Source: an uncultured Bacteroidales bacterium
GTDB taxonomy: Bacteria > Bacteroidota > Bacteroidia > Bacteroidales > Paludibacteraceae
Reading direction: 5' to 3'
Length of the DNA: 36,116 nt
Assembly (NCBI GenBank): GCA_902799185.1
Contig: CADBZO010000018.1
Coordinates: 1-36,116, forward strand
In this document: positions 3,521 through 33,853 of the stretch, one piece after another
How positions within the stretch are numbered: the stretch's first letter is position 1
How the letters are laid out: every line of letters begins with the position of its first letter
Program-made: the position numbers and the translations under genes
The notes under the pieces: generated by a model
Told to the model about the DNA's origin: nothing
The model's input: the letters and a program-made list of their open reading frames with translations, nothing else
Databases searched by the model: none

Positions 3521-3556
3521 AAAATGACATACAAATTTGCGTATGTCATTTTTTTT
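3521..3556 (+). terminator. Intrinsic terminator of hpf
   Basis: Perfect 12-bp stem AAAATGACATAC (3521-3532) / GTATGTCATTTT (3541-3552) with an 8-nt loop and a T-run to 3556. The loop holds the TTTG -33 element of the metK promoter, and the T-run is its spacer, so terminator and downstream promoter share DNA. Confidence 0.85.
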
Positions 3557-3567
3557 GTGTACCTTTG
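3536..3567 (+). promoter_or_regulatory. metK promoter
   Basis: -33 TTTG (3536-3539), exactly 20 bp, -7 TACCTTTG (3560-3567). Predicted start about 3574. The tract in the spacer is T8, donated by the hpf terminator, instead of the A8 found in other promoters here. Confidence 0.8.
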
Positions 3568-3580
3568 CACCCGATTTCGA

Positions 3581-3634
3581 TCAGAGGACGGATTTGACTG
3601 CTTGCAACCTCGTTAAAACAATGCTAAAACTTGT
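3581..3634 (+). ncRNA. Candidate SAM-II riboswitch in the metK leader
   Basis: The leader contains the ordered conserved blocks of the SAM-II (SAM_alpha) aptamer: GATTTG (3591-3596), GCTTGCAA (3600-3607), CGTTAAA (3611-3617) and GCTAAAA (3623-3629). A P1 stem can form between GAGG (3584-3587) and CCTC (3608-3611), enclosing the GATTTG loop. The P2 pseudoknot is less clear: loop TTG can pair with CAA at 3619-3621. It lies in the 5' leader of S-adenosylmethionine synthetase, the expected target of feedback by SAM. A terminator hairpin follows directly, which suggests control by transcription attenuation. The motif match was made by eye; a covariance-model search was not possible. Confidence 0.65.
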
Positions 3635-3635
3635 G

Positions 3636-3671
3636 CCACAAGCTTAAACAGTCGCTTGTGGATTTTTAATT
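3636..3671 (+). terminator. Attenuator terminator in the metK leader
   Basis: Perfect 8-bp stem CCACAAGC (3636-3643) / GCTTGTGG (3654-3661), 10-nt loop, followed by ATTTTTAATT, and located 20-50 nt before the metK ATG. The 5' arm (CAAGC) can instead pair with GCTTG (3600-3604) of the SAM-II-like loop, and the loop CAGTC (3649-3653) is complementary to GACTG (3596-3600). This gives a plausible switch between aptamer and terminator states. Confidence 0.7.
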
Positions 3672-3690
3672 ATAGAGGATTATTGAGAAT

Positions 3691-4974
3691 ATGAATTATC
3701 TTTTTACCAGCGAATCGGTGTCCGAGGGACACCCCGACAAGGTGAGCGACCAGATTTCGGACGCTATCCTGGATAACATGTTAGCGCAGGACCCGCATGC
3801 ACACGTAGCCTGCGAGACGATGTGTACCACCGGTCAGGTGGTCATTGCCGGCGAGGTGAGTTGCAACGGATGGGTGGATGTACAGCAGATTGCCCGCAAG
3901 ACCATCGCCGAGATTGGTTATACCAAGGCGGAATACAAGTTCGAAGCAGAGAGTTGCGGTATTCTGACCGCTCTGCATGCGCAGAGCCAGGATATCAATA
4001 TGGGTGTGAGCCGCGCTACGGAGGACGAGCAAGGCGCCGGCGACCAGGGAATGATGTTCGGCTACGCCACCGACGAGACGGACAACTTCATGCCCCTGAC
4101 GCTGGATCTGGCACACACCTTAGTCTATACGCTTGCGCGCATCCGCAAGGAAGGCAAACAGATGACGTACCTCCGTCCGGACAGCAAATCGCAGGTGACA
4201 ATCGAATATGACGAGCAGAACCGCCCCGTCCGTATTGACACGATTGTGTTGAGTACCCAACACGATGAGTATGTACAAGGGGACAATGTACAATGTACGA
4301 AGGTGACGCCGGAGCTGATCAAACAGGATGTGATTGATATTCTGTTGCCGAGGGTAGCTACTAGGGACAGCCGTTACGGCCATCTGCTGCACGCCTTTTT
4401 GGAGGACAAGAACGCCAAACTGCTGGTGAACCCGACGGGCAATTTCGTCATCGGCGGTCCTCACGGCGACACGGGTCTGACAGGTCGCAAGATCATCGTA
4501 GATACCTACGGTGGCCGCGGTGCTCACGGCGGTGGCGCCTTCTCAGGCAAGGATCCCTCCAAGGTGGACCGTTCTGCCGCGTATGCCGCCCGATGGATTG
4601 CCAAACATCTGGTAGCCGCCGGTGTGGCGCATGAGGCGCTGGTACAAGTCAGTTACGCTATCGGCGTAGCCGAACCGGTGTCTGTTTACGTGAATACATA
4701 CGGGACCGCACAAGTGCAGATGAACGATGCGGAGATCGCACAAAAAGTAGCGAAGCTGTTCGATTTGCGCCCGGCTGCCATCATTCGCTCCTTGAAACTC
4801 ACCCAGCCCATATACGAAGAGACCGCCAAATACGGTCATGTAGGACGCACCAACGAAGTGGTCACAAAGACCTTCTTTGACTCGGAGGGCAAGACTTTCA
4901 CCCGCGAAGTGGAACTCTTCACGTGGGAGAAACTGGACCGTTTGGCTGAAGTAAAAGCCGCTTTCGGATTATGA
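3691..4974 (+). CDS. metK: S-adenosylmethionine synthetase
   Basis: 427 residues. It makes SAM from methionine and ATP, releasing phosphate and pyrophosphate, in the cytoplasm. Diagnostic segments are the N-terminal [20 protein letters not shown], the ATP-binding [12 protein letters not shown] and the P-loop-like [16 protein letters not shown]. The start is the first ATG after the leader. The leader has a SAM-II-like aptamer and an attenuator, so expression is probably repressed when SAM is high. The stop codon overlaps the lspA ATG (ATGA), indicating translational coupling to lspA and the lipoprotein gene behind it. Confidence 0.98.
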
Positions 4975-5513
4975 ACAGGAACACGAAAATGAGTCTGATG
5001 GTGACGGCTATCGTACTGGTAGCCATCATCATTGACCAGATTATCAAACTCTCTGTCGCATCGCATTTCGCGATTGGCGAGAGCCGCGAGGTGACTTCTT
5101 GGTTCTGGCTGTGCTATGTAGAGAATAACGGCATGGCGTTCGGCATCGAGTGGTTCTCCAAACTGGCACTGACAATTTTCCGTCTTCTCGCCGTAGGGCT
5201 ATTAGGATGGTACACTCACACGCTGATCCGCAAACCTGAGACGCCGACCGGATATATCGCTTCAATAGCATTTATCATTGCCGGCGCACTGGGAAACATC
5301 ATAGACTGTGTGTTTTACGGCAAGCTGTTCGGTTACGCCGGATGGTTCTACGGGAGAGTGATCGACATGTTCTATTTCCCGCTGATTCGCAACAGCGCGG
5401 GCGAGGTGCTATTCTTCCGTCCGGTGTTCAATTTTGCGGACAGCTGCATCACTTGTGCCGTGGCTGTGATTCTGCTTTTCTATCTCAAACAACTCAATAC
5501 CGATGAGAAATAG
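4971..5513 (+). CDS. lspA: Lipoprotein signal peptidase (signal peptidase II)
   Basis: 180 residues with four predicted membrane spans (about 8-28, 66-84, 95-113 and 155-175). It is an inner-membrane aspartyl protease that cleaves the signal peptide of diacylglyceryl-modified prolipoproteins. The two catalytic Asp residues are visible in [13 protein letters not shown] (D112) and FNFADSCIT (D157), and the conserved N-terminal DQIIK is present. The gene overlaps metK by 4 bp and the next gene by 11 bp; that next gene encodes a lipoprotein, a fitting substrate. The insertion between the third and fourth spans is typical of Bacteroidota LspA. Confidence 0.95.
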
Positions 5514-6006
5514 ATACGTCCTGTTCGTTGTGCTCTGCGCCTGCACTTTGGGTCTGACCGGTTGCCGCCCAAAAGGAATCCTGCACTCGTCGGAGATGCG
5601 GGAGGTGCTGGTGGATCTGCATAAGACCGACGCGCTGCTGCAGGTCTCCGGGTTGCAATACGGGCATAACGAGGCATTGGATATCTATTACGCGCAAGTA
5701 CTTGAGAAACACGGTATTACGCAGGCGCAGTTTGATTCCTCCATTGTCTGGTACACCGATCATCCGCTGCTTTTCAACAAGATATATCCGAAAGTAGAAG
5801 CCGAAATTAAAGCCGAACGGACGGCTTTTCAGACGGAGTATGCCGCCGAGCTGAATCTCATACCGGAGGAGACGACATGGGAGAGTGTGCAAAGCAATCC
5901 GGAAACATTCACCTTGGACCAACTGGACAGCACTATTTGGGTAAACCTGCACGGCTACCCCACCTCTTGGAATCCCTGGACAAGACCATATCGGTTAGTC
6001 CGTTAA
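5503..6006 (+). CDS. DUF4296-type lipoprotein
   Basis: 167 residues. [21 protein letters not shown] is a lipoprotein signal peptide with lipobox LTGC, so the mature protein should be lipid-anchored after processing by the LspA encoded just upstream. The helical body has the features I recognise from the Bacteroidota DUF4296 family: a segment like SSEMREVLVDLHKTDALLQ, then YYAQVLEKHGITQAQFDSSI and WYTDHPLLFNKIYPKV. The function of that family is unknown. It overlaps lspA by 11 bp and ends convergently with holA; the two stop codons share bases 6004-6005. No terminator hairpin was seen at this junction. Confidence 0.8.
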   Translation: MRNRYVLFVVLCACTLGLTGCRPKGILHSSEMREVLVDLHKTDALLQVSGLQYGHNEALDIYYAQVLEKHGITQAQFDSSIVWYTDHPLLFNKIYPKVEAEIKAERTAFQTEYAAELNLIPEETTWESVQSNPETFTLDQLDSTIWVNLHGYPTSWNPWTRPYRLVR

Positions 6007-7034
6007 TGCAAAATTTTGTAAATCAACTCTTTCCACAAATCTGCATCTTTGGCTGACGGGTTGTTTATTCCCTTCAGCCGTGCATCTGTGTCCCGCAGAT
6101 AGCCGACAATCAAGAAAGCCTTGCCGGCAGGAAAACGTTGTGCAGCCGTTGCATAATCCTTCACGAAATAGGGGTTGATGCCTAATTCCCGCGCCGCATT
6201 CGCTTGGCTCTTGTCAGGCAGGTAATGGTACATCAACAGGTTGGAGAAGAACGTGAAGAGCGGTGCCATCTCACGGATCATGGGATGGTCCTTGCTGGAA
6301 GCGAAATACTGCGCAATCTTATTGGCACGCACCACATCGCCGCGGATGAGTGCCGCCTGTAACTCCATGATATTGTAGTCCTTAGAGATACCTATATTCC
6401 GTTCAACCAGCGCAGCGTCAATCGTATTGACACCTTCCGGACGACCGTCCATCAGTTTCTGCAACGCACCGGCAATGGCCGATAGGTCGGTACCCAGATG
6501 GTCCGCCAGTATAGGTGCCACACGCGGGTCGATAGTCACCTCCGGGTGTTGGTTCCTGAAATCGGCTATATAGACATTGATCCACCGCTCTACCTCGTAG
6601 TCGCGCAGTTTGTCGCTCTGCAGCCAGACCACTTGCGGGTGCTCCGATGCTTTCTTCCAGATACCTTGCCGTTTGTCCGGTTTGCCGTTATAGCAGATCA
6701 CGAGTACCGTTTGGGGCATCATATTCTCAAGATAAGCACCCAGTGCATCCCATTTCTTCACCGCCTGTGCCTCCCTGACAATCACCACCTTGCGGCCTCC
6801 CATCATCGCAAAACCACGTGCCGCTCCTATGACGGGGGATATATCTGCGCCCTGCAGGTCGCGCCCATAGACCACCTGCTGGTCAAACTCACGCGCCATC
6901 TCGTCCAGCACATGCGTGGAGAGATAGTCATACACGCGGTCGGTATAGTACGGTTCCTCGCCGCACAATATATATACCGGCGCGTATTCGCCAGCGCGCA
7001 TGGCGCGCATGATATCGTCGTATTTCTTAACCAT
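6003..7034 (-). CDS. holA: DNA polymerase III subunit delta
   Basis: 343 residues, the normal size. It is the delta (wrench) subunit of the clamp loader that opens the beta sliding clamp. The AAA+-like N-terminal domain starts MVKKYDDIMRAMRAGEYAPV and has ILCGEEPYYTDRVYDYL; the central GARGFAMMGGRKVVIVREAQ and the later LADHLGTDLSAIAGALQKL are typical for HolA. The ATG overlaps the stop of the nucleotidyltransferase-like gene by 1 bp (TAATG on the minus strand). It is the last gene of a three-gene unit transcribed from 9670-9701, an unusual pairing of replication with surface-sugar genes. Confidence 0.93.
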   Translation of the reverse strand: MVKKYDDIMRAMRAGEYAPVYILCGEEPYYTDRVYDYLSTHVLDEMAREFDQQVVYGRDLQGADISPVIGAARGFAMMGGRKVVIVREAQAVKKWDALGAYLENMMPQTVLVICYNGKPDKRQGIWKKASEHPQVVWLQSDKLRDYEVERWINVYIADFRNQHPEVTIDPRVAPILADHLGTDLSAIAGALQKLMDGRPEGVNTIDAALVERNIGISKDYNIMELQAALIRGDVVRANKIAQYFASSKDHPMIREMAPLFTFFSNLLMYHYLPDKSQANAARELGINPYFVKDYATAAQRFPAGKAFLIVGYLRDTDARLKGINNPSAKDADLWKELIYKILH

Positions 7035-24993: not shown

Positions 24994-25350
24994 AATAGGA
25001 TTAATTTACAAAAATCGTGCAAAGGTACAACAAATTTTGCACATATGCAAGCGTTCGGGCATTTTTTTTGACGAATAGAATATAATTCTATCTGTTTTGC
25101 GCGGATAGATAGCGGTTATGTTTGCATAAGATGAAAAGAAAAGAGTTACCGATTATTAAGATTGAGGGATAAAGCCAAGGTCAGTCCAGAAGGTGCACAA
25201 GGTCAGCGTAAGGTCTGCTATTTGGAACGATGTTGAAACGATATGGAAAAGTATATGATTATTAAGAATAGGTCAAGTCATTGTATCGAATTTCACTATT
25301 GTACACTATAAAATTAGCAAAACCCACAAACCGTTATGGTACATGTCAAA
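24994..25350. other. Non-coding junction between pheS and the accessory island
   Basis: After the pheS promoter this stretch has no recognisable gene. It contains hairpins TAGAAT-ATA-ATTCTA (25076-25090) and CTATCT / AGATAG (25088-25093 / 25107-25112), and direct repeats AAGGTCAG at 25177 and 25199 with AAGGTCTG at 25210, spaced 22 and 11 bp. No terminator for the WYL gene was found. Confidence 0.6.
25020..25051 (-). promoter_or_regulatory. pheS promoter
   Basis: Minus strand: CTTG (25051-25048), 20-bp spacer, TACCTTTG (25027-25020). The spacer has AAAATTTG instead of the full A8 tract. Confidence 0.75.
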
Positions 25351-26259
25351 TTACAAATACATTTGTGCCAAATGCCTCGTTTCCTCGGCGAATTGTTCCC
25401 GCAGCAATTGCGGAGCAAGGACTTCAATGTTAGATCCGTAGGTGCGGAGCTGCTGGATGAAATCAAACGTAGGCGCAACATGCCATTCGAAAACACAGGG
25501 TTCGGGTTCGCTCTGCGAGTGATGCAGCGGAAGCGAACGCAGGTATTTGGCATCTTTCTCGGATGCAACGCGTACGCGGACAAGTTCAGGTTTCAGGTCA
25601 TTGCCGCAGAACACGCCATAGAAAGGCGCAAAATACTCATGCGCATCAAAGTTTTTGGGACGTTTGAAGGTCTTTTCCAACAGTTCAAGGCTGATGATGC
25701 GGTCAAGGGAGTATATCTTAGGACTTTTCGGGTCTATGGTTCCGTCGAGTTCGGTACAGATGCCCAGCACGTACCACCGTTGTTTGAACACCTTGAGGCA
25801 TAGCGGCGAGAGATAGAAGCCATGCGGCGCGTCCGTGTCAAACCGCTGGTGCGTGCAGAGGAGGTTCCGGCTCTCGCTGATGGCGGTGACGATGGTCGTG
25901 AGGTATTGGGTTCCTTCCGGAATGGATTCGTAGATGATGCTGTCGCGCAACTCACGGCTGGCATCGAGCGACTGACTGACGGCAAACTGCGAGAGAAGCC
26001 ACTGTTTGGTTTGGCTGTTTATGTCCGAATCGTCGATGTAATACTGCCCTGTGGCACGCTCGCAAAGGATCTCTATATCGAAGAGTTCTTCGATGTCACG
26101 TCGTATCCGGTAGAACGACGTGTCCGGGATAGCCGTCTCGTGGCTGTCGTTATACCGCGAGTTCGACCACTTCCTGTCTATCTGCTCTTTGGTGATCTTC
26201 CCCGCACTCCGGATCGTATCCACCAACCAAAAGTATTTCTTGAATTGTACTACGGACAT
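25351..26259 (-). CDS. WYL-domain transcriptional regulator
   Basis: 302 residues. The N-terminal part (about 1-75) looks like a winged helix, SVVQFKKYFWLVDTIRSAG with TSFYRIRRDIEELFDIEI as recognition region; the centre has a WYL domain with GFYLSPLCLKVFKQRWYVLG and YSLDRIISLELL. WYL proteins sense ligands, often nucleic acids or nucleotides, and related ones (BrxR, CapW) repress defence operons. The frame could begin at a TTG 2 codons earlier; the ATG at 26259 is preferred. It is the last gene of the helicase-Hsp70-like operon, 21 bp after the ATPase stop, in the same direction, whereas BrxR-like regulators usually come first. Its base composition looks closer to the core genome than that of its two partners. 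Confidence 0.85.
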   Translation of the reverse strand: MSVVQFKKYFWLVDTIRSAGKITKEQIDRKWSNSRYNDSHETAIPDTSFYRIRRDIEELFDIEILCERATGQYYIDDSDINSQTKQWLLSQFAVSQSLDASRELRDSIIYESIPEGTQYLTTIVTAISESRNLLCTHQRFDTDAPHGFYLSPLCLKVFKQRWYVLGICTELDGTIDPKSPKIYSLDRIISLELLEKTFKRPKNFDAHEYFAPFYGVFCGNDLKPELVRVRVASEKDAKYLRSLPLHHSQSEPEPCVFEWHVAPTFDFIQQLRTYGSNIEVLAPQLLREQFAEETRHLAQMYL

Positions 26260-26280
26260 AATCAATATAATTGAGAGTTT

Positions 26281-27924
26281 TCACCAAGTTCCCATAGCAA
26301 GACGAAAATCATTCTCAGGAGTCTTTTCCACAGGTTTATCTTTGGGCATATCAGGTAGATGATTGAAGAATGCCTCTAATGGTTTTTCATCTAATTCTTC
26401 ATCTACATCAACCTGTTGAGACAAACCATATGCGGTCGCTACTATTGGGAATAAATCCTCAGGAATATTACCGGCATTACCTAAGTGCTCAATATTAAGT
26501 AGATATTTATTGATAGGTCTTTTGTCCGAGAAATATATATCAGATGTGCTAAACTCTCTGATTTTCGAGTACACAGAACCGCCTCCGCACAAATAAATAG
26601 GCTTGTCTTTCATGGCTATTTCTACATGGGACTTGTTGTATCCTTTTTTACTTTGACCGGATAGAAAGACACCAACTATCTGTTTAACAAGGCTCCGAAG
26701 TTGACCATTCAATTCGTTTTTATAAATAGCAATTGGTTGAGCAAATTGTTCTTTTCCTTGAGCCTGCCTAAAAACATCTTGTATTTCGGCAATTGTTTGA
26801 TTAGGATGCAATTTCTGATATTCTTCAAATATAAAGTTAAGCCCCTTGTTAAAAGAATAAACTCTATGTATTCCTATCGTTTTGTTTGCGCCATTCTGTC
26901 CTCCATAAACCGAACACATCGCAATATCCGTAGTACCACCTCCAATATCAACAAGTAGGAACATACCGGAACCAAGTTTTTCCCGTATAGCGAGTAATCC
27001 AGCGCTCGCTTCAGGTATCACAATGGCTGGTGCGCTCTTTATCTGTTCTGTCTTTAACAAGTTACATAATTCATCAATAGTAGCGGATACATAACCCTCT
27101 AATGACTTAAAGTGATCGGCTAAGAAAACAGCATTAGACCAAATTCTTCTTGCAACGCCACGGCGCTGTTGAGACACACGTCCTTTCGAGCCTAATGGTG
27201 CACCAAGTTGGACGGTAAATTCATAGCCAATGCGTTTGCGAATACACAAACAAACATAAGCCATATACAGCGCCGACAAAGTTTCTGGAGAATATGCATA
27301 TGGCCATGTAGATGGATAGAAAGAGGCTTGCTTAAAATAGCGGAATCGCATTTGTGAAGTTGCCTCTAAATCTTTCTTCCATAATTCATAAGCCAATTGA
27401 TAGTCTTTTTCTGCTTGCTCAACCTTGCGTTTCCATTCTGTTTCAATCTGTATGTTTTTCGCAGCAGTCTCTTTCTTCCTATTAAGCCACGCTTGTTTAC
27501 GATTTTCATTAGCTCTCTCGGTGGTAGCACACTCTTGTTTCCACTTCTTCATTTCTTCAGAAATAGGAAGTAATTTTTCGAGGACAGCCAAGTATCCTGT
27601 ATTCTTTGATTCCGGTTTTTTAGGCAAAGGCTCATATTTGGGTTCTGTTGGTATAGGAAGATATTCTGGATCTGCAATCACTTCTTTCTCGGGAGGGTTA
27701 TTGCCATCATTCACTACTATAAGTGCCTTTGAAGAGTCTGCAAAACCATAACTAACTGTGCGGTCTTGATTGATTTGCACAATAGATGGTAGTAGCACGG
27801 TCGTTTTTCCATTTGGCATCACATATTCGAGGAACTCATAAACAGGCACACGTTTGTTTAGTGCGTCCTCGATACATACCTTTGTTTGGTGGGTACCAAA
27901 GTCTATTCCTACATTGTATCTCAT
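26281..27924 (-). CDS. Actin/Hsp70-fold ATPase with coiled-coil insertion, candidate defence protein
   Basis: 547 residues. Three nucleotide-binding motifs of the actin/Hsp70/ParM superfamily are present: phosphate-1 NVGIDFGTHQTKVCI (4-18), phosphate-2 FLLVDIGGGTTDIAM (322-336) and adenosine IYLCGGGSVY (443-452). Between them, residues about 113-190 form a charged, Trp-containing coiled coil (KKWKQEC, EWKRKVEQAEKDYQ, ELWKKDL). There is no Hsp70 substrate-binding domain. It starts 1 bp after the stop of the SNF2-like helicase, so the two are translationally coupled and probably act as one complex. AT-rich relative to the core genes, which suggests horizontal acquisition. Ligand, partner and output are unknown; a defence role is inferred from association with a helicase and a WYL regulator. 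Confidence 0.8.
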   Translation of the reverse strand: MRYNVGIDFGTHQTKVCIEDALNKRVPVYEFLEYVMPNGKTTVLLPSIVQINQDRTVSYGFADSSKALIVVNDGNNPPEKEVIADPEYLPIPTEPKYEPLPKKPESKNTGYLAVLEKLLPISEEMKKWKQECATTERANENRKQAWLNRKKETAAKNIQIETEWKRKVEQAEKDYQLAYELWKKDLEATSQMRFRYFKQASFYPSTWPYAYSPETLSALYMAYVCLCIRKRIGYEFTVQLGAPLGSKGRVSQQRRGVARRIWSNAVFLADHFKSLEGYVSATIDELCNLLKTEQIKSAPAIVIPEASAGLLAIREKLGSGMFLLVDIGGGTTDIAMCSVYGGQNGANKTIGIHRVYSFNKGLNFIFEEYQKLHPNQTIAEIQDVFRQAQGKEQFAQPIAIYKNELNGQLRSLVKQIVGVFLSGQSKKGYNKSHVEIAMKDKPIYLCGGGSVYSKIREFSTSDIYFSDKRPINKYLLNIEHLGNAGNIPEDLFPIVATAYGLSQQVDVDEELDEKPLEAFFNHLPDMPKDKPVEKTPENDFRLAMGTW

Positions 27925-27925
27925 A

Positions 27926-30900
27926 CTACTCCACTATTATATGACTTAGCGATATTAGGCGTGAAACTTGAGGTAACTCTATGTGACAATCACGAACTCT
28001 ATCCAGTGCCTCTAATTTATCTTGTTCCAAGCGGCGAAGAATACCATTACGGGATGGCAATATTCGTTCAAGATTCTTTTGCTCTTGCACCAATTCTTCT
28101 TTATAGTCGCCCCAATAGTATTGCTTGCTTTGTTTGATTTCTTCTATGCGTTTCTCGAAGCGAGCAATTGTTTGCTTTTCTTGCTCGATTTTATTATTAT
28201 GGTATTCTTCTTGACGTAACAACTCGACTTGTTTTGTACTTTCCAAGCGGGTACTATAATAGGCTAACTTTTTATCTTCTTCATTGCAGATTTCTTCTGC
28301 GAAGTGATTATTTAAAAGATCCATCAAGTGCTCATCTGTCAATACAGGATGAGACATAGGTCGTGCATATAATTGCGCTTCGCCTAGAAAATGTTCTGCC
28401 ACATCTGCATCTTCACACATTCTATCTTGATCCTTATCATACAGAATTGGAAGTAAAATCTCGAGGTTCTGAGCTTTACCATACATAGTCCGTTTGAGCA
28501 CCAATTGGTATAAAGCCAAGAAATATTCTCCAATATGCACAGATGGCATATCATCAAACAATACTTTTGGAATTACGTATTGGAAAGTATCTTCATCTTC
28601 TTGATTGCGCTGTTTGAAGAAGTTCATTGCAGCTAATATAAAAGGATGGTATGGGTCTATGTAAATACATCCCGGATGTTGTTGCGCAATATCTCTATTG
28701 AATGCTAAACATATCTCAGACAAGTCACGAATCCGCGTTCTAAAACGATTAGCTTCCTTTTCGTATTCCGCGCCGATATACTCATATTGCGATAAGAACC
28801 CTGTTAGAATATGTGGACTATCTTTGGGTATATGGAAGGTGTATGTGCCATCAGCATTTGCATCCATAGAGCAAGTTGTAAGTTTATACCGAATGACATT
28901 TCGAATATAACTTTCCAATTCCTTGTCGGTAATATAACGATGGTTGCGTTGAATACTATTTATCTCATTGGTGAAATAAGCATCATTGGTCAATGTATTT
29001 GTCAATTCCTCAGTGATACTTTCCAAATCCTTTTTGGCACGAATAGCCGCTTGGGCAACCGCATCTATTAAGGCTTGCTCTTGTTCTTTCGATATCTTGG
29101 TGCAATAAAGTTCTTTCTCCAAACTAACAAAAATCTGCTGAAGGCTTTTACCTTGAAGTCCATTCACTTCAAGGTCCTTATCCAAGATGGCTTCTAAGTC
29201 GCCGATACATCCTTTGAAAATATCAATACGGTCTAATAAACGCTTGTATATATCTTCTTGGATAGAATCAGCAACAATGAGATTGTAAATATGAACGATA
29301 GGAGATTTCTGTCCAAATCGATCCACACGACCTATACGTTGCTCTACCACCATTGGATTCCATGGGAGATCGTAGTTTACAATAGAATCACAGAATTGCA
29401 TATCAAGACCCTCGCTCCCTACTTCGGAAGAAAGAAGTATCTTAACATCATCACTATTTTTGAACCTTTCGATTTCTTGCACACGATTTTCGATATCACC
29501 ATGGATCATTGCAGTTTGGTAACCCAACTTGCTCAATCGAATAGAAAGATATTTGAGTGTGTTTTTGAAGAGCGCAAAAATGATAATCTTATTACCTTGA
29601 GCGGCGTGATTATCCACCACTTCACGTATAATCTCTATGAGCTTATCAAACTTGGCATCAGGTTTCTCTTCATATTCATCAATCCCCTCATCAAGCATGT
29701 ATGTCTCATTAAGATACGCATACACACTACTTGCAATACGCCGTTTTTTTTGGATTAAGCCAAGCGTCGCACCCATAGTCATCCTCGCATCCCCGTACTC
29801 ATCAATATAGGAATTATCTTCTTTATACTCCTCTATGACTTTGTCAAAATATTCCCTTTCTTCTGGATATAAAGATACGTAGTGCGTCTGAGGGTCGCGA
29901 GTGGCTTGAGACATATCCTCAACCACTTCTTTCTTCCGCGTGCGTGTGAAGATATTGTTAATCATGCTCATGGAAGAAAGGTCTGTTTGCAGTTGAACAC
30001 GTAACTGCGGTGTGTCTGGTAGTTTCGATTTGGCAATTATCTCCTGATACAAGGGAACATCTGCATAACGTTTCCCAATGGTGGTGACTGCATCGTAATT
30101 CAATTGATTTTCTTCGCTACCAGACTGATAGTGAGTGACTATCTGAGTGTTATCCAAATCCGTAAATATGTCCACCAGATTATTCCCTGACTTAGCCAAT
30201 TTGCTTAGAGCCTCGATAAAAGGTCTATTCTCATTTAGTGCATTGTCAAATTGGGGAAAATTGTCAAATCGATTCGGATCTAATAAGTTAAGAAGATTAA
30301 ATAGATTCTCTTGGCTAATCATAATAGGAGTAGCAGTCAAGAAAACTACAGATTTAGCATGTTCGATTAAGAGACGCATCCCCTTGTGTAATTGCGTATT
30401 GCTATTTCTCATCCTATGTGCCTCATCGCAGAGGATAAAGTCGAATCGAATAGATGAAAAATATAATAGGTGATGTAAGGTCTCTCTAGCGACTGTCCAT
30501 TTCTGGGCATCTATTTTTCCGTCCTCTATATCTTTAAGTTTTTCTTCGTCCGCACGAGATAGGCGTACTTTCTCGTAATTGATAATTCCTCGAATTATTT
30601 CTGGACCATGCTTCAAATCATAGATCAAGTCCTTGACTTCATCGTAAATCTTAAAGTCAAACCCAAATTTTTCCTCCAACTCATCATGCCACTTGTCAAG
30701 CAACGAATGAGGACAGATGACGAGCGCACTTCTCATCTCCTTGCGCGCTTTTAATTCCATCATAATATGTCCCGCCTCGATTGTTTTACCAAGACCGACC
30801 TCATCAGCAACAAGGATTCTGCGATTTTCAGAGTTAAGAAATTTCAATAATGGTTTATACTGGTATGCCTTAAATACCGTTTTGGAAGCCATTAAAGTAG

Positions 30901-31174
30901 AGAGAGTATTATTACTGGTGTTCTCCAGTTTAAATGTAGTATTGATGCGAGTGAAGTCTTCACAACTTCCAAACATACCACGCTTGCACTTGTCAAATGG
31001 ATTAGCGATGATAGTATCTCTTTCTAGATACCTTTCAAGACACCTTGCTTCACCACTAGGAAACACAACAGTATATTGCTGACGGCCATCGACAGCATCA
31101 TGCACAACAAGAACCGAACCATGTTCATTAGTTCTTATATTGACAACTCTATCTCCAACTTGAAATTCCGGCAT
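27926..31174 (-). CDS. SNF2/RapA(HepA)-like helicase, candidate defence protein
   Basis: 1082 residues. An N-terminal small beta-barrel (FQVGDRVVNI...GSVLVVHD, 4-26) resembles the Tudor/KOW-like start of RapA. The SF2 core shows motif I LVADEVGLGKTIEAG (121-135), DEAH box ILCDEAHRMRN (247-257), FLTATPI (278-284), motif V SSEVGSEGLDM (582-592) and motif VI EQRIGRVDRFGQ (611-622). The last 450 residues are not recognised and end in a long coiled coil (about 950-1060); no nuclease motif was seen. Likely an ATP-driven DNA translocase or protein-DNA remodeller. It directly follows a truncated gene tail (1-bp gap) and precedes the Hsp70-like gene (1-bp gap). Visibly AT-rich. Confidence 0.88.
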   Translation of the reverse strand: MPEFQVGDRVVNIRTNEHGSVLVVHDAVDGRQQYTVVFPSGEARCLERYLERDTIIANPFDKCKRGMFGSCEDFTRINTTFKLENTSNNTLSTLMASKTVFKAYQYKPLLKFLNSENRRILVADEVGLGKTIEAGHIMMELKARKEMRSALVICPHSLLDKWHDELEEKFGFDFKIYDEVKDLIYDLKHGPEIIRGIINYEKVRLSRADEEKLKDIEDGKIDAQKWTVARETLHHLLYFSSIRFDFILCDEAHRMRNSNTQLHKGMRLLIEHAKSVVFLTATPIMISQENLFNLLNLLDPNRFDNFPQFDNALNENRPFIEALSKLAKSGNNLVDIFTDLDNTQIVTHYQSGSEENQLNYDAVTTIGKRYADVPLYQEIIAKSKLPDTPQLRVQLQTDLSSMSMINNIFTRTRKKEVVEDMSQATRDPQTHYVSLYPEEREYFDKVIEEYKEDNSYIDEYGDARMTMGATLGLIQKKRRIASSVYAYLNETYMLDEGIDEYEEKPDAKFDKLIEIIREVVDNHAAQGNKIIIFALFKNTLKYLSIRLSKLGYQTAMIHGDIENRVQEIERFKNSDDVKILLSSEVGSEGLDMQFCDSIVNYDLPWNPMVVEQRIGRVDRFGQKSPIVHIYNLIVADSIQEDIYKRLLDRIDIFKGCIGDLEAILDKDLEVNGLQGKSLQQIFVSLEKELYCTKISKEQEQALIDAVAQAAIRAKKDLESITEELTNTLTNDAYFTNEINSIQRNHRYITDKELESYIRNVIRYKLTTCSMDANADGTYTFHIPKDSPHILTGFLSQYEYIGAEYEKEANRFRTRIRDLSEICLAFNRDIAQQHPGCIYIDPYHPFILAAMNFFKQRNQEDEDTFQYVIPKVLFDDMPSVHIGEYFLALYQLVLKRTMYGKAQNLEILLPILYDKDQDRMCEDADVAEHFLGEAQLYARPMSHPVLTDEHLMDLLNNHFAEEICNEEDKKLAYYSTRLESTKQVELLRQEEYHNNKIEQEKQTIARFEKRIEEIKQSKQYYWGDYKEELVQEQKNLERILPSRNGILRRLEQDKLEALDRVRDCHIELPQVSRLISLSHIIVE

Positions 31175-31175
31175 A

Positions 31176-31289
31176 TCATCTAATACTTTCTATCAATTTC
31201 TCCAAACTGACACATACCTTGGTGAAGAGTTTGTACATCAGTTCCGATTCAAAACTATCTTTGTCGGGAATAAGCACATACGCTTCATT
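31176..31289 (-). pseudogene. 3' remnant of a deleted gene just upstream of the helicase
   Basis: 37 in-frame codons (NEAYVLIPDKDSFESELMYK then LFTKVCVSLEKLIESIR) end in TGA one base before the helicase ATG, exactly the spacing used between helicase and Hsp70-like gene. Upstream the frame is closed at once by TGA (31290-31292), and no good start precedes the first codons; only an internal ATG would allow a 20-residue peptide. Charged, amphipathic, protein-like composition suggests the C-terminal end of a former operon gene. The family cannot be told from this length. It marks a deletion or insertion boundary near 31290. Confidence 0.6.
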
Positions 31290-31348
31290 TCAGGTTGTTT
31301 TTTTATTTGTGTTTATCACACGTTTGCTTTGCTTTTCTTGTATCCTAA

Positions 31349-31395
31349 CTTGTACTATTTTCCTTGTACTATTTTTGTTTGAGCTTGTACTATTA
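31349..31395. repeat. Three CTTGTACTATT repeats upstream of the helicase operon
   Basis: Identical 11-mers at 31349-31359, 31363-31373 and 31384-31394, start-to-start 14 and 21 bp, both multiples of seven. The last copy overlaps the stop codon of the AlbA_2 gene. They could be operator sites or another heptamer-phased repeat. Confidence 0.75.
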
Positions 31396-32766
31396 GCTCT
31401 CAATTACTTCCCAATACCCACCCTTGTCAGGGCCAATACGACGGATATACCCGGACTCTTGCAATTGTTGTATATACCATTTCACACTATCTGCAGAAAG
31501 ACCAAGTATCTCAGCTAATTGTCTCCTTGAAAGTTTTGGATTTTTGGTCAATTGCTCGAGAATGAGTGCGTTTTTATATGCTCTATTTGTCGGGTGACAT
31601 TCTGGGTAGTTTTCGATTTTCTGGCTTTTTTTCTGGGTGGTTTTCTGGGTGGAAATTGTTTTTTCTGGGTGGTTTTCTTCTCCCGGAAGCCATGCGTAAG
31701 GAATCACAACACGAGTAAAATGATCCATAAAGATAAAACACTCCTTACCATATACCTTCATCACTCGCTGAAGGCCGGTTCCCAATGACTCAACCAACTC
31801 AACATCGCGGAATACACGCATCAACTCTTTGTTGCGCGGATTGCTGACACCATTGAAGAAATCTTCCTGATTCATATCGTCGGGAAGTGTTCCCGTAGAT
31901 GTAATCTCCATGCGGTCGGAAAAGAGTTCAAACTTAGGTGGCACCTCGTTGAAATAATCGTTGTGAACAATCGCGTTGATGACTAATTCGCGTACAGCAC
32001 GCTCATTCCACAGCGGTGTGTCTGTGCGGTAAGGATAGCCGATGACTGTTTTTACTGTATTTTCAACCCGCAGACGATCTAAAACACGGTCCGTTGCTTT
32101 TAACAAAGAACAATAACCATATTCATGGTTCTCTATCAGTTCGTCTCTATCTTTTCCTGCGTATTTAGCAACTTTGATAGATGTGCTATTTTCATCCGCT
32201 AACAGATATGCCACATAATTGTATCTGCCATCATCCGTTAGGAGTTCCAAGCTTTTGGCAAAATTACTATTGAGTGTCAGATGTTTGCTATCGTAGTAGA
32301 TATTCAATTGACGGAAAGTTAAATCTTGTCGCGGTGAAGGAATATGCTTGAGAGAGCGACGCACTCTACGAGAAAACATATCTTCAATCTGCGTTTGCGT
32401 CATAGGCTCTGCTGCCGTTCCGATACGCGTAAAGCAGCCTTTGGGAGAAAGACCATACTGCTTTTTATAATATGGTTTCTCCGAACCGGATGAGACAAAC
32501 ACCCTAATAACAGATACTCCTTCTATGTGTTCTGCCGTAACGTCGAACAGCCCCATTGGGGAAGGGAGAATATTGTCCCTAAGTCGGTTCTTGATAGTGA
32601 GCATGTCGCTGTCAATATCCTTCACGCCGACAGGTTTGCCGGAGTCATCCACGCCGATGTAGATAATACCTCCCTCTCGGTAGTTAAGGAAAGCCACAAC
32701 CTCTTTCTCGATGTCGAGTTCGCGAGTCAGTTCGCGCTTAAACTCTATGCGGTTGGATTCTAACAT
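31393..32766 (-). CDS. AlbA_2 (Schlafen-type) domain regulator with GHKL-like and winged-helix domains
   Basis: 457 residues. N-terminal AlbA_2 domain (IEFKRELTRELDIEKEVVAF, then NYREGGIIYIGVDDSGKPVG) typical of RecG-like predicted transcriptional regulators; central ATPase-like region with RELVINAIVHNDYFN and GTGLQRVMKVYG; a Thr/Gln/Lys-rich linker (TISTQKTTQKKSQK) encoded by a simple repeat of AAAACCACCCAG type; and a C-terminal winged helix (SRRQLAEILGLSADSVKWYI). Such proteins are common in accessory and defence islands and may bind DNA or nucleotides. It has its own promoter (32825-32856) and ends 218 bp before the helicase. The dyad CACATC-TT-GATGTG (32789-32802) in its leader is a possible self-control site. 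Confidence 0.83.
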   Translation of the reverse strand: MLESNRIEFKRELTRELDIEKEVVAFLNYREGGIIYIGVDDSGKPVGVKDIDSDMLTIKNRLRDNILPSPMGLFDVTAEHIEGVSVIRVFVSSGSEKPYYKKQYGLSPKGCFTRIGTAAEPMTQTQIEDMFSRRVRRSLKHIPSPRQDLTFRQLNIYYDSKHLTLNSNFAKSLELLTDDGRYNYVAYLLADENSTSIKVAKYAGKDRDELIENHEYGYCSLLKATDRVLDRLRVENTVKTVIGYPYRTDTPLWNERAVRELVINAIVHNDYFNEVPPKFELFSDRMEITSTGTLPDDMNQEDFFNGVSNPRNKELMRVFRDVELVESLGTGLQRVMKVYGKECFIFMDHFTRVVIPYAWLPGEENHPEKTISTQKTTQKKSQKIENYPECHPTNRAYKNALILEQLTKNPKLSRRQLAEILGLSADSVKWYIQQLQESGYIRRIGPDKGGYWEVIES

Positions 32767-32788
32767 AATTTTCTATCATGTGTTTATG

Positions 32789-32802
32789 CACATCTTGATG
32801 TG
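32789..32802. promoter_or_regulatory. Dyad in the leader of the AlbA_2 gene
   Basis: CACATC-TT-GATGTG lies roughly 16-29 nt after the predicted transcript start and before the ATG at 32766. It may be an operator or a small hairpin. Confidence 0.4.
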
Positions 32803-32824
32803 TCTTGCACTTAAATTTCGCCTG

Positions 32825-32856
32825 CAAAGTTACCACTTTTTTTTCATATATGCAAA
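32825..32856 (-). promoter_or_regulatory. Promoter of the AlbA_2 gene
   Basis: Minus strand: TTTG (32856-32853), 20-bp spacer with A8, TAACTTTG (32832-32825). Confidence 0.8.
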
Positions 32857-32887
32857 TTAAATTGCATATAACACAAAATATAAGCTC

Positions 32888-32986
32888 CTAAATGTTCATA
32901 AACATTGATACTAGGAACCACACTCCCAAGATGATTTCTACCAAACTAATCAAAAGACTTATCAATTCTTCCATGTTTTTATTCAT
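32888..32986 (-). CDS. Small hydrophobic peptide, second of a tandem pair (32 residues)
   Basis: Starts MNKNMEELISLLISLVEI and continues with a hydrophobic stretch ILGVWFLVSMFMNI to TAG at 32888-32890. An internal ATG at 32974 would give 28 residues, exactly the length of the neighbouring peptide at 33127-33213, and both then start ME(E/K) and share an SLV-x-LG-x-F pattern. It could be a single-span membrane peptide, such as a type I toxin or a small regulatory protein. Expression is unproven; the support is its pairing with a similar ORF, a promoter upstream and the absence of other genes here. Confidence 0.5.
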   Translation of the reverse strand: MNKNMEELISLLISLVEIILGVWFLVSMFMNI

Positions 32987-33126
32987 TTAAGTTTTTTTTG
33001 CACCGCCGACTCTCACGAGCCGACGAATGCTTGCTTCATTTCAATCCCGGAGCATCCTTCCAACGGAATGGAAGGAGCGGCCTCCGCCTAGAAAGGCATT
33101 CAGTAATCTATCCATAAGCAAGTATA
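32987..33126 (-). ncRNA. Structured region between the two small peptides
   Basis: GC-rich compared with its surroundings. It can form CCTTCCA-ACGGAA-TGGAAGG (33056-33075) and GGAG-CGGC-CTCC (33074-33085) hairpins, and has GTCGGC twice on the minus strand near 33003-33024. A third tiny ORF (24 codons, 33041-33115, MDRLLNAFLGGGRSFHSVGR) overlaps it. Could be a regulatory RNA element controlling the downstream peptide. Confidence 0.35.
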
Positions 33127-33213
33127 TTATATACACAGCAGCACTGCTGCGATGAAAAACATTCCTATTAAACCTAATGTGTCCATTACCAAACTCAAAA
33201 CGCTCTTTTCCAT
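33127..33213 (-). CDS. Small hydrophobic peptide, first of a tandem pair (28 residues)
   Basis: MEKSVLSLVMDTLGLIGMFF followed by IAAVLLCI and TAA (33127-33129). One predicted transmembrane helix covers most of it. It resembles the peptide at 32888-32974 in length and pattern. Two possible promoters lie upstream (33443-33474, and a -7 element at 33299-33306). A type I toxin-like or signalling role is possible but unproven. It does not show the conserved C-terminal GVTSC ending I associate with Bacteroidota smalltalk proteins. Confidence 0.5.
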   Translation of the reverse strand: MEKSVLSLVMDTLGLIGMFFIAAVLLCI

Positions 33214-33298
33214 AATCTCACAAATTTTGCAGTTAAACTACCTTATTTTTTTCAAATTCTTATCCCTTTCTGGAATGATTATCTTTTGATTTTCGTTG

Positions 33299-33334
33299 CA
33301 AAGGTACTGCATCAAACTCCCAAAACTCGGGAGT
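33299..33334 (-). promoter_or_regulatory. Possible regulated promoter of the small peptides
   Basis: A perfect -7 element TACCTTTG (33306-33299, minus strand) lacks a matching -33 at the usual 20-bp distance. In its place is the inverted repeat ACTCCC (33316-33321) / GGGAGT (33329-33334), a likely operator for an activator or repressor. Confidence 0.5.
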
Positions 33335-33442
33335 GAAATAAAATAAATGACAAAAAAGTGCGTTTTTGTATCATAAGACACAAAAAAGAACCATTCGCTA
33401 TTCCGAACAGCTCTTTAATGTTTTTTAAGTCAAATTCGGCTG

Positions 33443-33474
33443 CAAAGTTAGTAATAAATTTTGAAATACGCAAA
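33443..33474 (-). promoter_or_regulatory. Upstream promoter towards the small peptides
   Basis: Minus strand: TTTG (33474-33471), 20-bp spacer, TAACTTTG (33450-33443). The spacer has AAAATTTATT instead of A8. No gene other than the small peptides lies downstream before the AlbA_2 promoter. Confidence 0.7.
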
Positions 33475-33528
33475 TATATCAGAAAGAATTTAAGATTTGA
33501 ACAAAAAAAGAACCAAAAGAAAAAAAGA

Positions 33529-33550
33529 TGTAACACCTATTGTAACACCT
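33529..33550. repeat. Direct repeat TGTAACACCT x2
   Basis: Two identical 10-mers 12 bp apart, in AT-rich DNA just left of the GC-rich palindrome at 33580-33591. Confidence 0.7.
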
Positions 33551-33579
33551 TAAATTTATTAAATAAAGGTTGTGGTACT

Positions 33580-33591
33580 GCGCGTACGCGC
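33580..33591. repeat. Palindrome GCGCGTACGCGC
   Basis: Perfect 12-bp palindrome of very high GC content in an AT-rich surrounding; may be a protein site or the end of an inserted element. Confidence 0.6.
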
Positions 33592-33698
33592 GTAAAGACG
33601 CCGCAGAGCGGCATGGCGGTCGGACTTTTTTTTTAGAAGATTTTTAGGTCTGTACGCTGATCTTTCAGGGCGTCCCTCGGACTTCCTCAGGTCGTTCC

Positions 33699-33784
33699 CG
33701 GAAGATGGTCCCGTGATGCTCCCGCGCTTCCGTCGTTATTGGATTGCGCTTTCAATCACTTTACCATCACGGGACCATCTTCCG
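33699..33784. repeat. Perfect 20-bp inverted repeat with 46-bp loop
   Basis: CGGAAGATGGTCCCGTGATG at 33699-33718 and its exact complement at 33765-33784. No T-run follows on either strand, so it is not a standard terminator. It lies after the flavoprotein gene at the right edge of the accessory island. Confidence 0.9.
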
Positions 33785-33853
33785 AGAGATACCCAACGAA
33801 AGTACAATCAGAACGAAGCAGGGGCAAGTAGTGTTAATACTTCTTCAGTTGAT

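Follow-up and report, generated by a model that had tools for sequence, protein, structure and literature searches.

What places a gene for a SNF2-type helicase directly against a gene for an ATPase of the actin/Hsp70 fold, and is such a pair a unit in its own right? The question is raised by one entire 36 kb contig, C18, out of the 55 that make up the genome of an uncultured Bacteroidales bacterium, which is analysed here at its full length (36,116 nucleotides; hereafter the window). A preliminary description of this DNA had proposed an undescribed defence operon made of a SNF2/RapA-like helicase, an Hsp70/actin-fold ATPase, and a WYL regulator. Helicase and ATPase indeed form a real, widespread, and conserved two-gene module whose pairing is well supported, and the module is probably defensive, a function suggested by its genomic context. 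The two genes are as follows.

27926-31174, minus strand: RapA/DrmD-type SNF2 translocase of 1082 amino acids (open reading frame, Pfam, NCBIfam, PADLOC, and superfamily 2 (SF2) helicase motifs)
26281-27924, minus strand: actin/Hsp70-fold ATPase of 547 amino acids (open reading frame, nucleotide motifs, and profile and model fold matches)

The upstream end of the helicase, formerly put at 31289, is thus taken as 31174. The ATPase was found in 15 loci, nine from Bacteroidota, three from Pseudomonadota, two from Cyanobacteriota, and one on a contig of a viral collection (the window, L007-L011, L072-L075, L086, L087, L089, L090, and L187), and in all 15 the gene adjacent to it encodes a helicase from the same subfamily. 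The helicase precedes the ATPase in 14 of them with gaps of -8 to +14 bp (1 bp in the window); in L090 the order is reversed, with the ATPase first and 98 bp between the genes. Five loci (L086, L087, L089, L090, and L187) are on records classed as plasmids, that of L187 being 4.6 Mb long and almost unannotated. L007 and L008 are from uncultured Bacteroidales assemblies and are placed in the genus of the window because stretches of 2000 and 1000 bases recur in L199 and L200, from the same-genus genomes G951 and G924. These two repeats of L007 and L008 are not recounted, nor are L107, on the same contig as L072, and Sphingobium CAP-1, apparently a near-duplicate of L087.

Co-occurrence was also seen in genome samples. 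In the order, three of 393 genomes have the ATPase (>100 bits), and the identical three (G000, G076, and G407) have the helicase (E ≤ 1e-100); in the phylum, each is found in three of 395, again identical (G000, G746, and G674), and the window's own genome, G000, is one of the three in both samples. In the genus, five of 178 genomes have the helicase (E ≤ 1e-60), and the ATPase is alongside in all five. Both helicase cut-offs are the analyst's choice, and since it was through the ATPase that the loci behind the helicase profile had been found, agreement is favoured. Weaker matches to the ATPase profile (at E ≤ 0.001, the profile matched in 175 genomes of the order sample and 293 of the phylum sample) were set aside as FtsA/MreB-type background; the next ones listed score at most 35 bits, apart from second pieces, and were judged by score, range, and length, not singly. 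A match in G094 (L005, L012; E 6e-5) was dropped likewise. In the reverse search of plasmids from the helicase, 887 records matched; nine of the best 20 were opened (H1, H3, H4, H5, and H7-H11), and five of these nine carry the ATPase. Among helicase loci of the viral collection, 10 of 80 were examined. In L111, an 18-bit match to the ATPase profile is on the opposite strand about 2.5 kb from the helicase, and it was not counted.

Furthermore, the two proteins appear to share their history. Trees of the 15 ATPases and of the 15 helicases with seven related ones have in common the groups (window, L007), (L009, (L010, L072)), (L074, L075), (L187, (L089, L090)), and (L086, L087). Support is weak for some deep branches of each tree, and the trees disagree on the positions of L073 and L011. 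A Mantel comparison of helicases and ATPases gave r of 0.944 for the 15 loci, and r of 0.844 for the nine Bacteroidota members with L072; 0 of 9999 permutations were as high in either case. The earlier proposal that the two ATPases are one unit thus stands on the same genomes, adjacent genes, and congruent trees. Two findings had been named in advance as speaking against the operon, namely that the ATPase genes do not co-occur and that homologues are mainly in housekeeping contexts; both were looked for, but the two genes are found together, and no housekeeping setting common to the loci was apparent.

The helicase contains the Pfam domains SNF2-rel_dom and Helicase_C, and its SF2 motifs I, II, III, V, and VI, among them DEVGLGKT, DEAH, and EQRIGRVDR, are intact, so that this part of the preliminary description is confirmed by both domain match and motif alignment. 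Among solved structures, RapA is nearest in sequence (5e-35). The NCBIfam model DISARM_DrmD (NF038317) covers residues 64-1062 at 338.5 bits, a score under its curated cut-off of 610, and the PADLOC DrmD model PDLC02623 matches with an E value of 7e-121 (no cut-off is printed for it); on relatives' helicases PDLC02623 gives 990 bits for the cyanobacterial L089 and 790 bits for the alphaproteobacterial L086. The helicase subfamily is therefore already in PADLOC under the DrmD name. The C-terminal 450 residues had been described as unknown, but since the DrmD homology extends over 64-1062, this region is, as judged by sequence, RapA/DrmD-like with long predicted C-terminal helices. Beta strands at 9-49 and helices at 948-1062 are taken from a low-confidence model only, with a mean predicted local distance difference test score (pLDDT) of 49.5. 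By analogy with BrxHII and RapA, as presented in the available part of PMC12839542, the beta-rich N-terminal part may be Tudor/SH3-like.

The ATPase has, in order, DFGTHQTK, PEASAG, DIGGGTTD, and CGGGS, which we take to be the motifs named phosphate-1, connect-1, phosphate-2, and adenosine. The preliminary description had noted three nucleotide motifs of this kind, and phosphate-1, phosphate-2, and adenosine bear this out; all four are recognisable in the 15 members. No Pfam or NCBIfam family, Hsp70 families included, matches the protein above cut-off, and the best PADLOC match, to the candidate family PDC-M61B, is weak (E 0.003); three of four scanned relatives match this family too, at E values from 5e-7 to 5e-4, the best over 23 residues. 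A profile of the window ATPase and five relatives, compared with solved structures, gave weak matches to MreB (2e-6, the best), actin-like ATPases, and Hsp70, and a Foldseek search with a low-confidence model (pLDDT 59.4) gave DnaK and MreB, which is taken as support only. On the motifs, the profile matches, and the model together, the protein is predicted to belong to the actin/Hsp70 (ASKHA) superfamily. It is probably not an Hsp70 chaperone proper, as it has no C-terminal substrate-binding domain: only about 46 of its 547 residues come after L501, the last position that is invariant among the members. A coiled coil had been supposed to stand in for that domain. Actually, it is predicted as one helix at about 123-188 inserted within the nucleotide-binding domain (low-confidence model), and it occurs in only five of the 15 ATPases (window, L007, L008, L009, and L073), where the insert has 121-130 residues versus 7-12 in the other ten. 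The ATPase of L010 (7596-9617) has no coiled coil; its long C-terminal tail resembles KOW/Tudor on visual inspection. In L011 (49-9339), the ATPase is fused to an SMC/AAA_15-like ATPase, and after it come genes for HNH, ResIII, Bro-N, and an N4/N6-methylase.

There is a related group of helicases with another partner. Helicases of ATPase-paired loci score at least 444 bits with helicase profile A3 and others at most 426 (21 contigs plus L072-L075), a cut that was noticed after the fact. Walker A is VGLGKT in all 15 paired helicases and VGVGKT in all seven unpaired ones aligned (L088, L091, L108, L109, L110, L188, and L189). Directly downstream of the related DrmD-type helicase in L088, L091, L110, L188, and L189 is a sacsin/Hsp90-like gene; in L109, the single frame scanned beside the helicase gave no such match, the neighbour in L108 was outside the scan, and L092 stops at the contig end. 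In L091, a PglZ gene lies upstream of the pair. These pairs resemble the module of the window in having a related DrmD-type helicase followed by a gene for a chaperone-type ATPase, but their partner is of the GHKL/Hsp90 type and their Walker A differs. The related group therefore suggests that the partner slot is one for a chaperone-type ATPase.

What the module is for is suggested by its neighbours. Restriction, BREX, or McrBC-type genes are close to the pair in six of the 15 loci: a C5-methylase and a BsuBI/PstI enzyme directly upstream in L008, an Eco57I-type methylase and a BsuBI/PstI enzyme directly upstream in L010, HNH, ResIII, and an N4/N6 methylase downstream in L011, PLD, DEAD-DUF559, and HNH in L074, BrxA, BrxB, and BrxC in L075, and McrBC with Hachiman HamA in L086. 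Farther off, within about 20 kb, are a methylase and a restriction enzyme (L087), type I restriction-modification genes (L089), and type I-D CRISPR genes (L090). In the window cluster, a domain scan of 10 window proteins recognised no nuclease.

RapA-type SNF2 enzymes move on double-stranded DNA and displace or recycle RNA polymerase. On the reading that we favour, though with some reserve, the core is a two-gene module against mobile elements, in which an actin/Hsp70-like switch gates a defence translocase. The RapA/DrmD-type enzyme would track along double-stranded DNA, and the ATPase would bind it and, working as a nucleotide-driven switch or clamp, determine when it acts on foreign DNA; we infer both the physical complex and the gating. 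A switch is the simplest reading of the ATPase because the partner is tightly coupled to, and co-evolving with, the motor. On foreign DNA the pair may then act alone, as a motor that clears or stalls, and strip or arrest transcription or replication there, or it may feed the DNA to a co-resident nuclease; these alternatives are proposed because no nuclease was recognised here and the restriction modules elsewhere are varied (BsuBI/PstI-type, HNH plus ResIII, BREX, and McrBC). The WYL protein would act as an add-on transcriptional regulator.

Several observations weigh against this reading. Six loci (window, L007, L009, L072, L073, the last a 7.5 kb contig, and L187) have no recognised restriction or BREX-type gene among their partly scanned neighbours, and three of the nine defence-positive loci have about 7-19 kb between the pair and the defence genes; all of these counts come from flanks whose inspected extent varies by locus and have no random-locus control. 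Phosphate-2 is altered to DVGAMTLD in L086, DVGASTLD in L087, DFGDGTLD in L090, and DIGSGTTE in L089, and L075 has DEVQ as its helicase motif II; active cycling therefore may not be universal. On one plasmid (H39), an 83-residue ATPase match (16% of the query), dropped from the set, has no helicase listed in 10.8 kb. The helicase model, with its pLDDT of 49.5, was too poor for a fold search, and the source assembly is fragmented and 87% complete.

Other explanations have to be compared with a gated defence translocase. The pair may be a regulatory add-on of restriction-modification that remodels DNA or RNA polymerase and so aids or controls a co-resident enzyme, giving no defence alone. Enzyme and methylase genes directly upstream of the pair in L008 and L010, and HNH, ResIII, and methylase genes downstream in L011, fit such a role. 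However, the restriction partner varies, and none was recognised in the scanned neighbours of the window or L009, where the pair is intact, so that this explanation is regarded as unlikely. The DISARM core is defined as DrmA-DrmB (MZB/DUF1998)-DrmC, in which MZB (DUF1998) is the mark of DrmB. A slightly less probable alternative is a stripped or variant DISARM, with the helicase as DrmD and the ATPase as an overlooked accessory. The helicase is homologous to DrmD (NF038317, PDLC02623) along nearly its entire length, and the 338.5 bits over 64-1062 and the 990 and 790 bits on relatives speak for this view, whereas the score of the window helicase below 610 does not. Its actin/Hsp70-fold neighbour also sets it apart from DrmD of DISARM. 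Moreover, the DISARM core was not found: none of its partners is among the 10 window proteins scanned (DrmC was not searched genome-wide), and MZB PF09369 has no match in the 87% complete genome; the same search was positive in eight of 14 control genomes. The DrmA model, an unspecific one positive in 13 of 14 controls, gives only this helicase and two weak matches (29.5 and 21.9 bits) in the window genome. No gene named DISARM or Drm was seen within about 20 kb in four of four plasmid loci, as far as the annotation goes, which includes large hypothetical proteins.

Two further alternatives take the pair out of defence altogether. That it is a maintenance module of mobile elements, an actin-like partition filament with a translocase, is hinted at by a weak match of the ATPase to the phage partition-protein family phrog_691 (E 3e-4) and by the five plasmid-classed records. 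Three of these plasmids, however, have separate ParA or ParA/ParB genes, the window contig bears pheS and other cellular genes, and only short repeats were seen in the scanned regions, to which no dedicated partition-site search was applied; we also know of no SNF2 helicase in partition. This makes a partition role very improbable. Even less credence is given to a housekeeping role in transcription recycling of the RapA kind, together with a chaperone. No solved structure is closer in sequence than RapA, but the helicase is present in just five of 178 genus and three of 393 order genomes, has low G+C, occurs as divergent copies inside one genus, and has plasmid and phage-gene neighbours.

Among known systems, BrxHII, the BREX-related Swi2/Snf2 helicases, and ArmA of ARMADA share the RapA-like architecture; according to the available parts of the sources, they accompany BREX proteins, or a PglX-like methylase and a YprA helicase (PMC12839542, PMC12458937). 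No PglX/PglZ or YprA-type partner is among the 10 window proteins, a search confined to these proteins within the genome, and the term hsp70 has no occurrence in the main texts of the two papers. Hsp70-like domains are known in conflict systems, namely CoCoNuTs and GTPase-centred systems, one GTPase-centred variant having an HSP70 domain without a peptide-binding domain, as far as the available text tells (PMC11090510 for CoCoNuTs). CnuD of CoCoNuT is likewise an Hsp70-like ATPase domain within a restriction-type system, but in the part available it is described as a nucleotide-binding domain and a substrate-binding domain with HEAT-like repeats, McrBC-homologue partners, and a degenerate Walker A-like motif (PMC11090510). 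The window ATPase is unlike it in having no substrate-binding domain, intact motifs, and a SNF2 helicase as partner; no McrB-type GTPase or McrC is among the 10 window proteins, and the genome was not searched for McrB. The available portions of PMC11090510, PMC12458937, PMC12839542, PMC7159879, PMC3710099, and PMC9142583 mention no Hsp70-like domain paired with a SNF2 helicase.

As the preliminary description had stated, the gene set as a whole matches no named system. Its word "undescribed" needs a qualifier: no prior description of the pair was found, in agreement with the word, but the helicase half is in PADLOC as DrmD. No description of the pair was seen among the papers listed in searches of the open-access literature or in PADLOC 2023, and the claim of novelty is limited to that scope.

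INO80, SWI/SNF, and RSC remodellers pair SNF2 motors with actin/Arp subunits. In the module, too, a SNF2 translocase is teamed with an actin-fold subunit, a parallel of logic; the remodellers are eukaryotic and nucleosomal, no HSA domain was identified here, where none was sought, and homology of the pairing is not claimed. A bolder idea, which we hold to be doubtful, is that a bacterial SNF2 translocase under a dedicated actin-fold subunit is a prokaryotic counterpart of this actin/Arp module, its logic being convergent or ancestral, and serves as a mobile immunity engine joined to varied restriction systems. DrmD/BrxHII-type helicases are recurrent in prokaryotic immunity, and to our knowledge their control is unsettled. 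The actin/Hsp70-fold partner, together with the related Hsp90/sacsin-partnered helicases, suggests chaperone-type ATPases as a general switch for such motors, and the pair would offer a simple two-gene system for studying actin-fold ATPase control of a SNF2 motor.

Around the pair, the window contains the following features.

25351-26259, minus strand: WYL-WCX regulator with an N-terminal part, last gene of the cluster, with an alternative TTG start at 26265
31393-32766, minus strand: AlbA_2/Schlafen-RecG-C-like protein with a winged helix-turn-helix (domain scan), the upstream neighbour
31349-31394, minus strand: AATAGTACAAG as an exact direct repeat, three copies in all, in the spacer that separates the AlbA_2 gene from the helicase

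The order on the minus strand is AlbA_2/RecG-C-like, helicase, ATPase, WYL, and pheS. The tight order of three genes on one strand is as described earlier; the 21 bp between ATPase and WYL are counted from the ATG at 26259, which is backed by relatives, the longer reading of the frame being 25351-26265. Correctly noted, too, were the AlbA_2/Schlafen-type gene adjoining the cluster and its AT-richness (per-kilobase G+C of 0.37-0.41 across 26001-33000, while the first 25 kb of the window have 0.44-0.59). Cluster DNA matches none of nine congeneric pheS regions (L093-L101), the other flank being too little syntenic for a clean empty site; upstream of pheS (window 25050-33850 compared with L093-L101), gene content is variable across the nine genomes.

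The WYL protein had formerly been counted as a core part, which is not supported: just five of the 15 loci have a WYL gene near the pair. These genes belong to different WYL groups and differ in position. In the window, L008, and L010, the WYL gene follows the pair directly; in L072 and L073, it lies upstream, separated from the pair by one small gene. In the stretches of the other ten loci, six WYL queries had no match at E ≤ 1e-4. Between the window and L008, protein identity is 44.0% for the helicase, 41.0% for the ATPase, and 92.7% for WYL, and nucleotide identity falls at both ends of the WYL gene (window 25351-26259, L008 11680-12588), a pattern that reads as gene-sized exchange. WYL relatives are found in 50 of 76 genus genomes (E ≤ 1e-30), versus five of 178 for the helicase. 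Because of this exchange and its commonness where the pair is rare, WYL seems to move independently and is best seen as an exchangeable accessory, a transcriptional regulator acquired by different loci. The 10 neighbour proteins of five of six WYL paralogues show no consistent defence link. In L072, a contig of the viral collection IMG/VR, three consecutive WYL-domain genes (3556-6444) lie upstream of the pair.

The AlbA_2 gene is probably not core either, since a counterpart directly before the helicase is present only in L007 (23% identical) among the loci compared. Its product matches the phage family phrog_12156 along nearly its full length (E 4e-59). As for the repeats, one of 100 shuffles reaches three matches when one mismatch is allowed, and the 10-base core is in none of 190 loci except L102, the window's own copy. 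The three AATAGTACAAG copies, just upstream of the helicase, are a possible operator.

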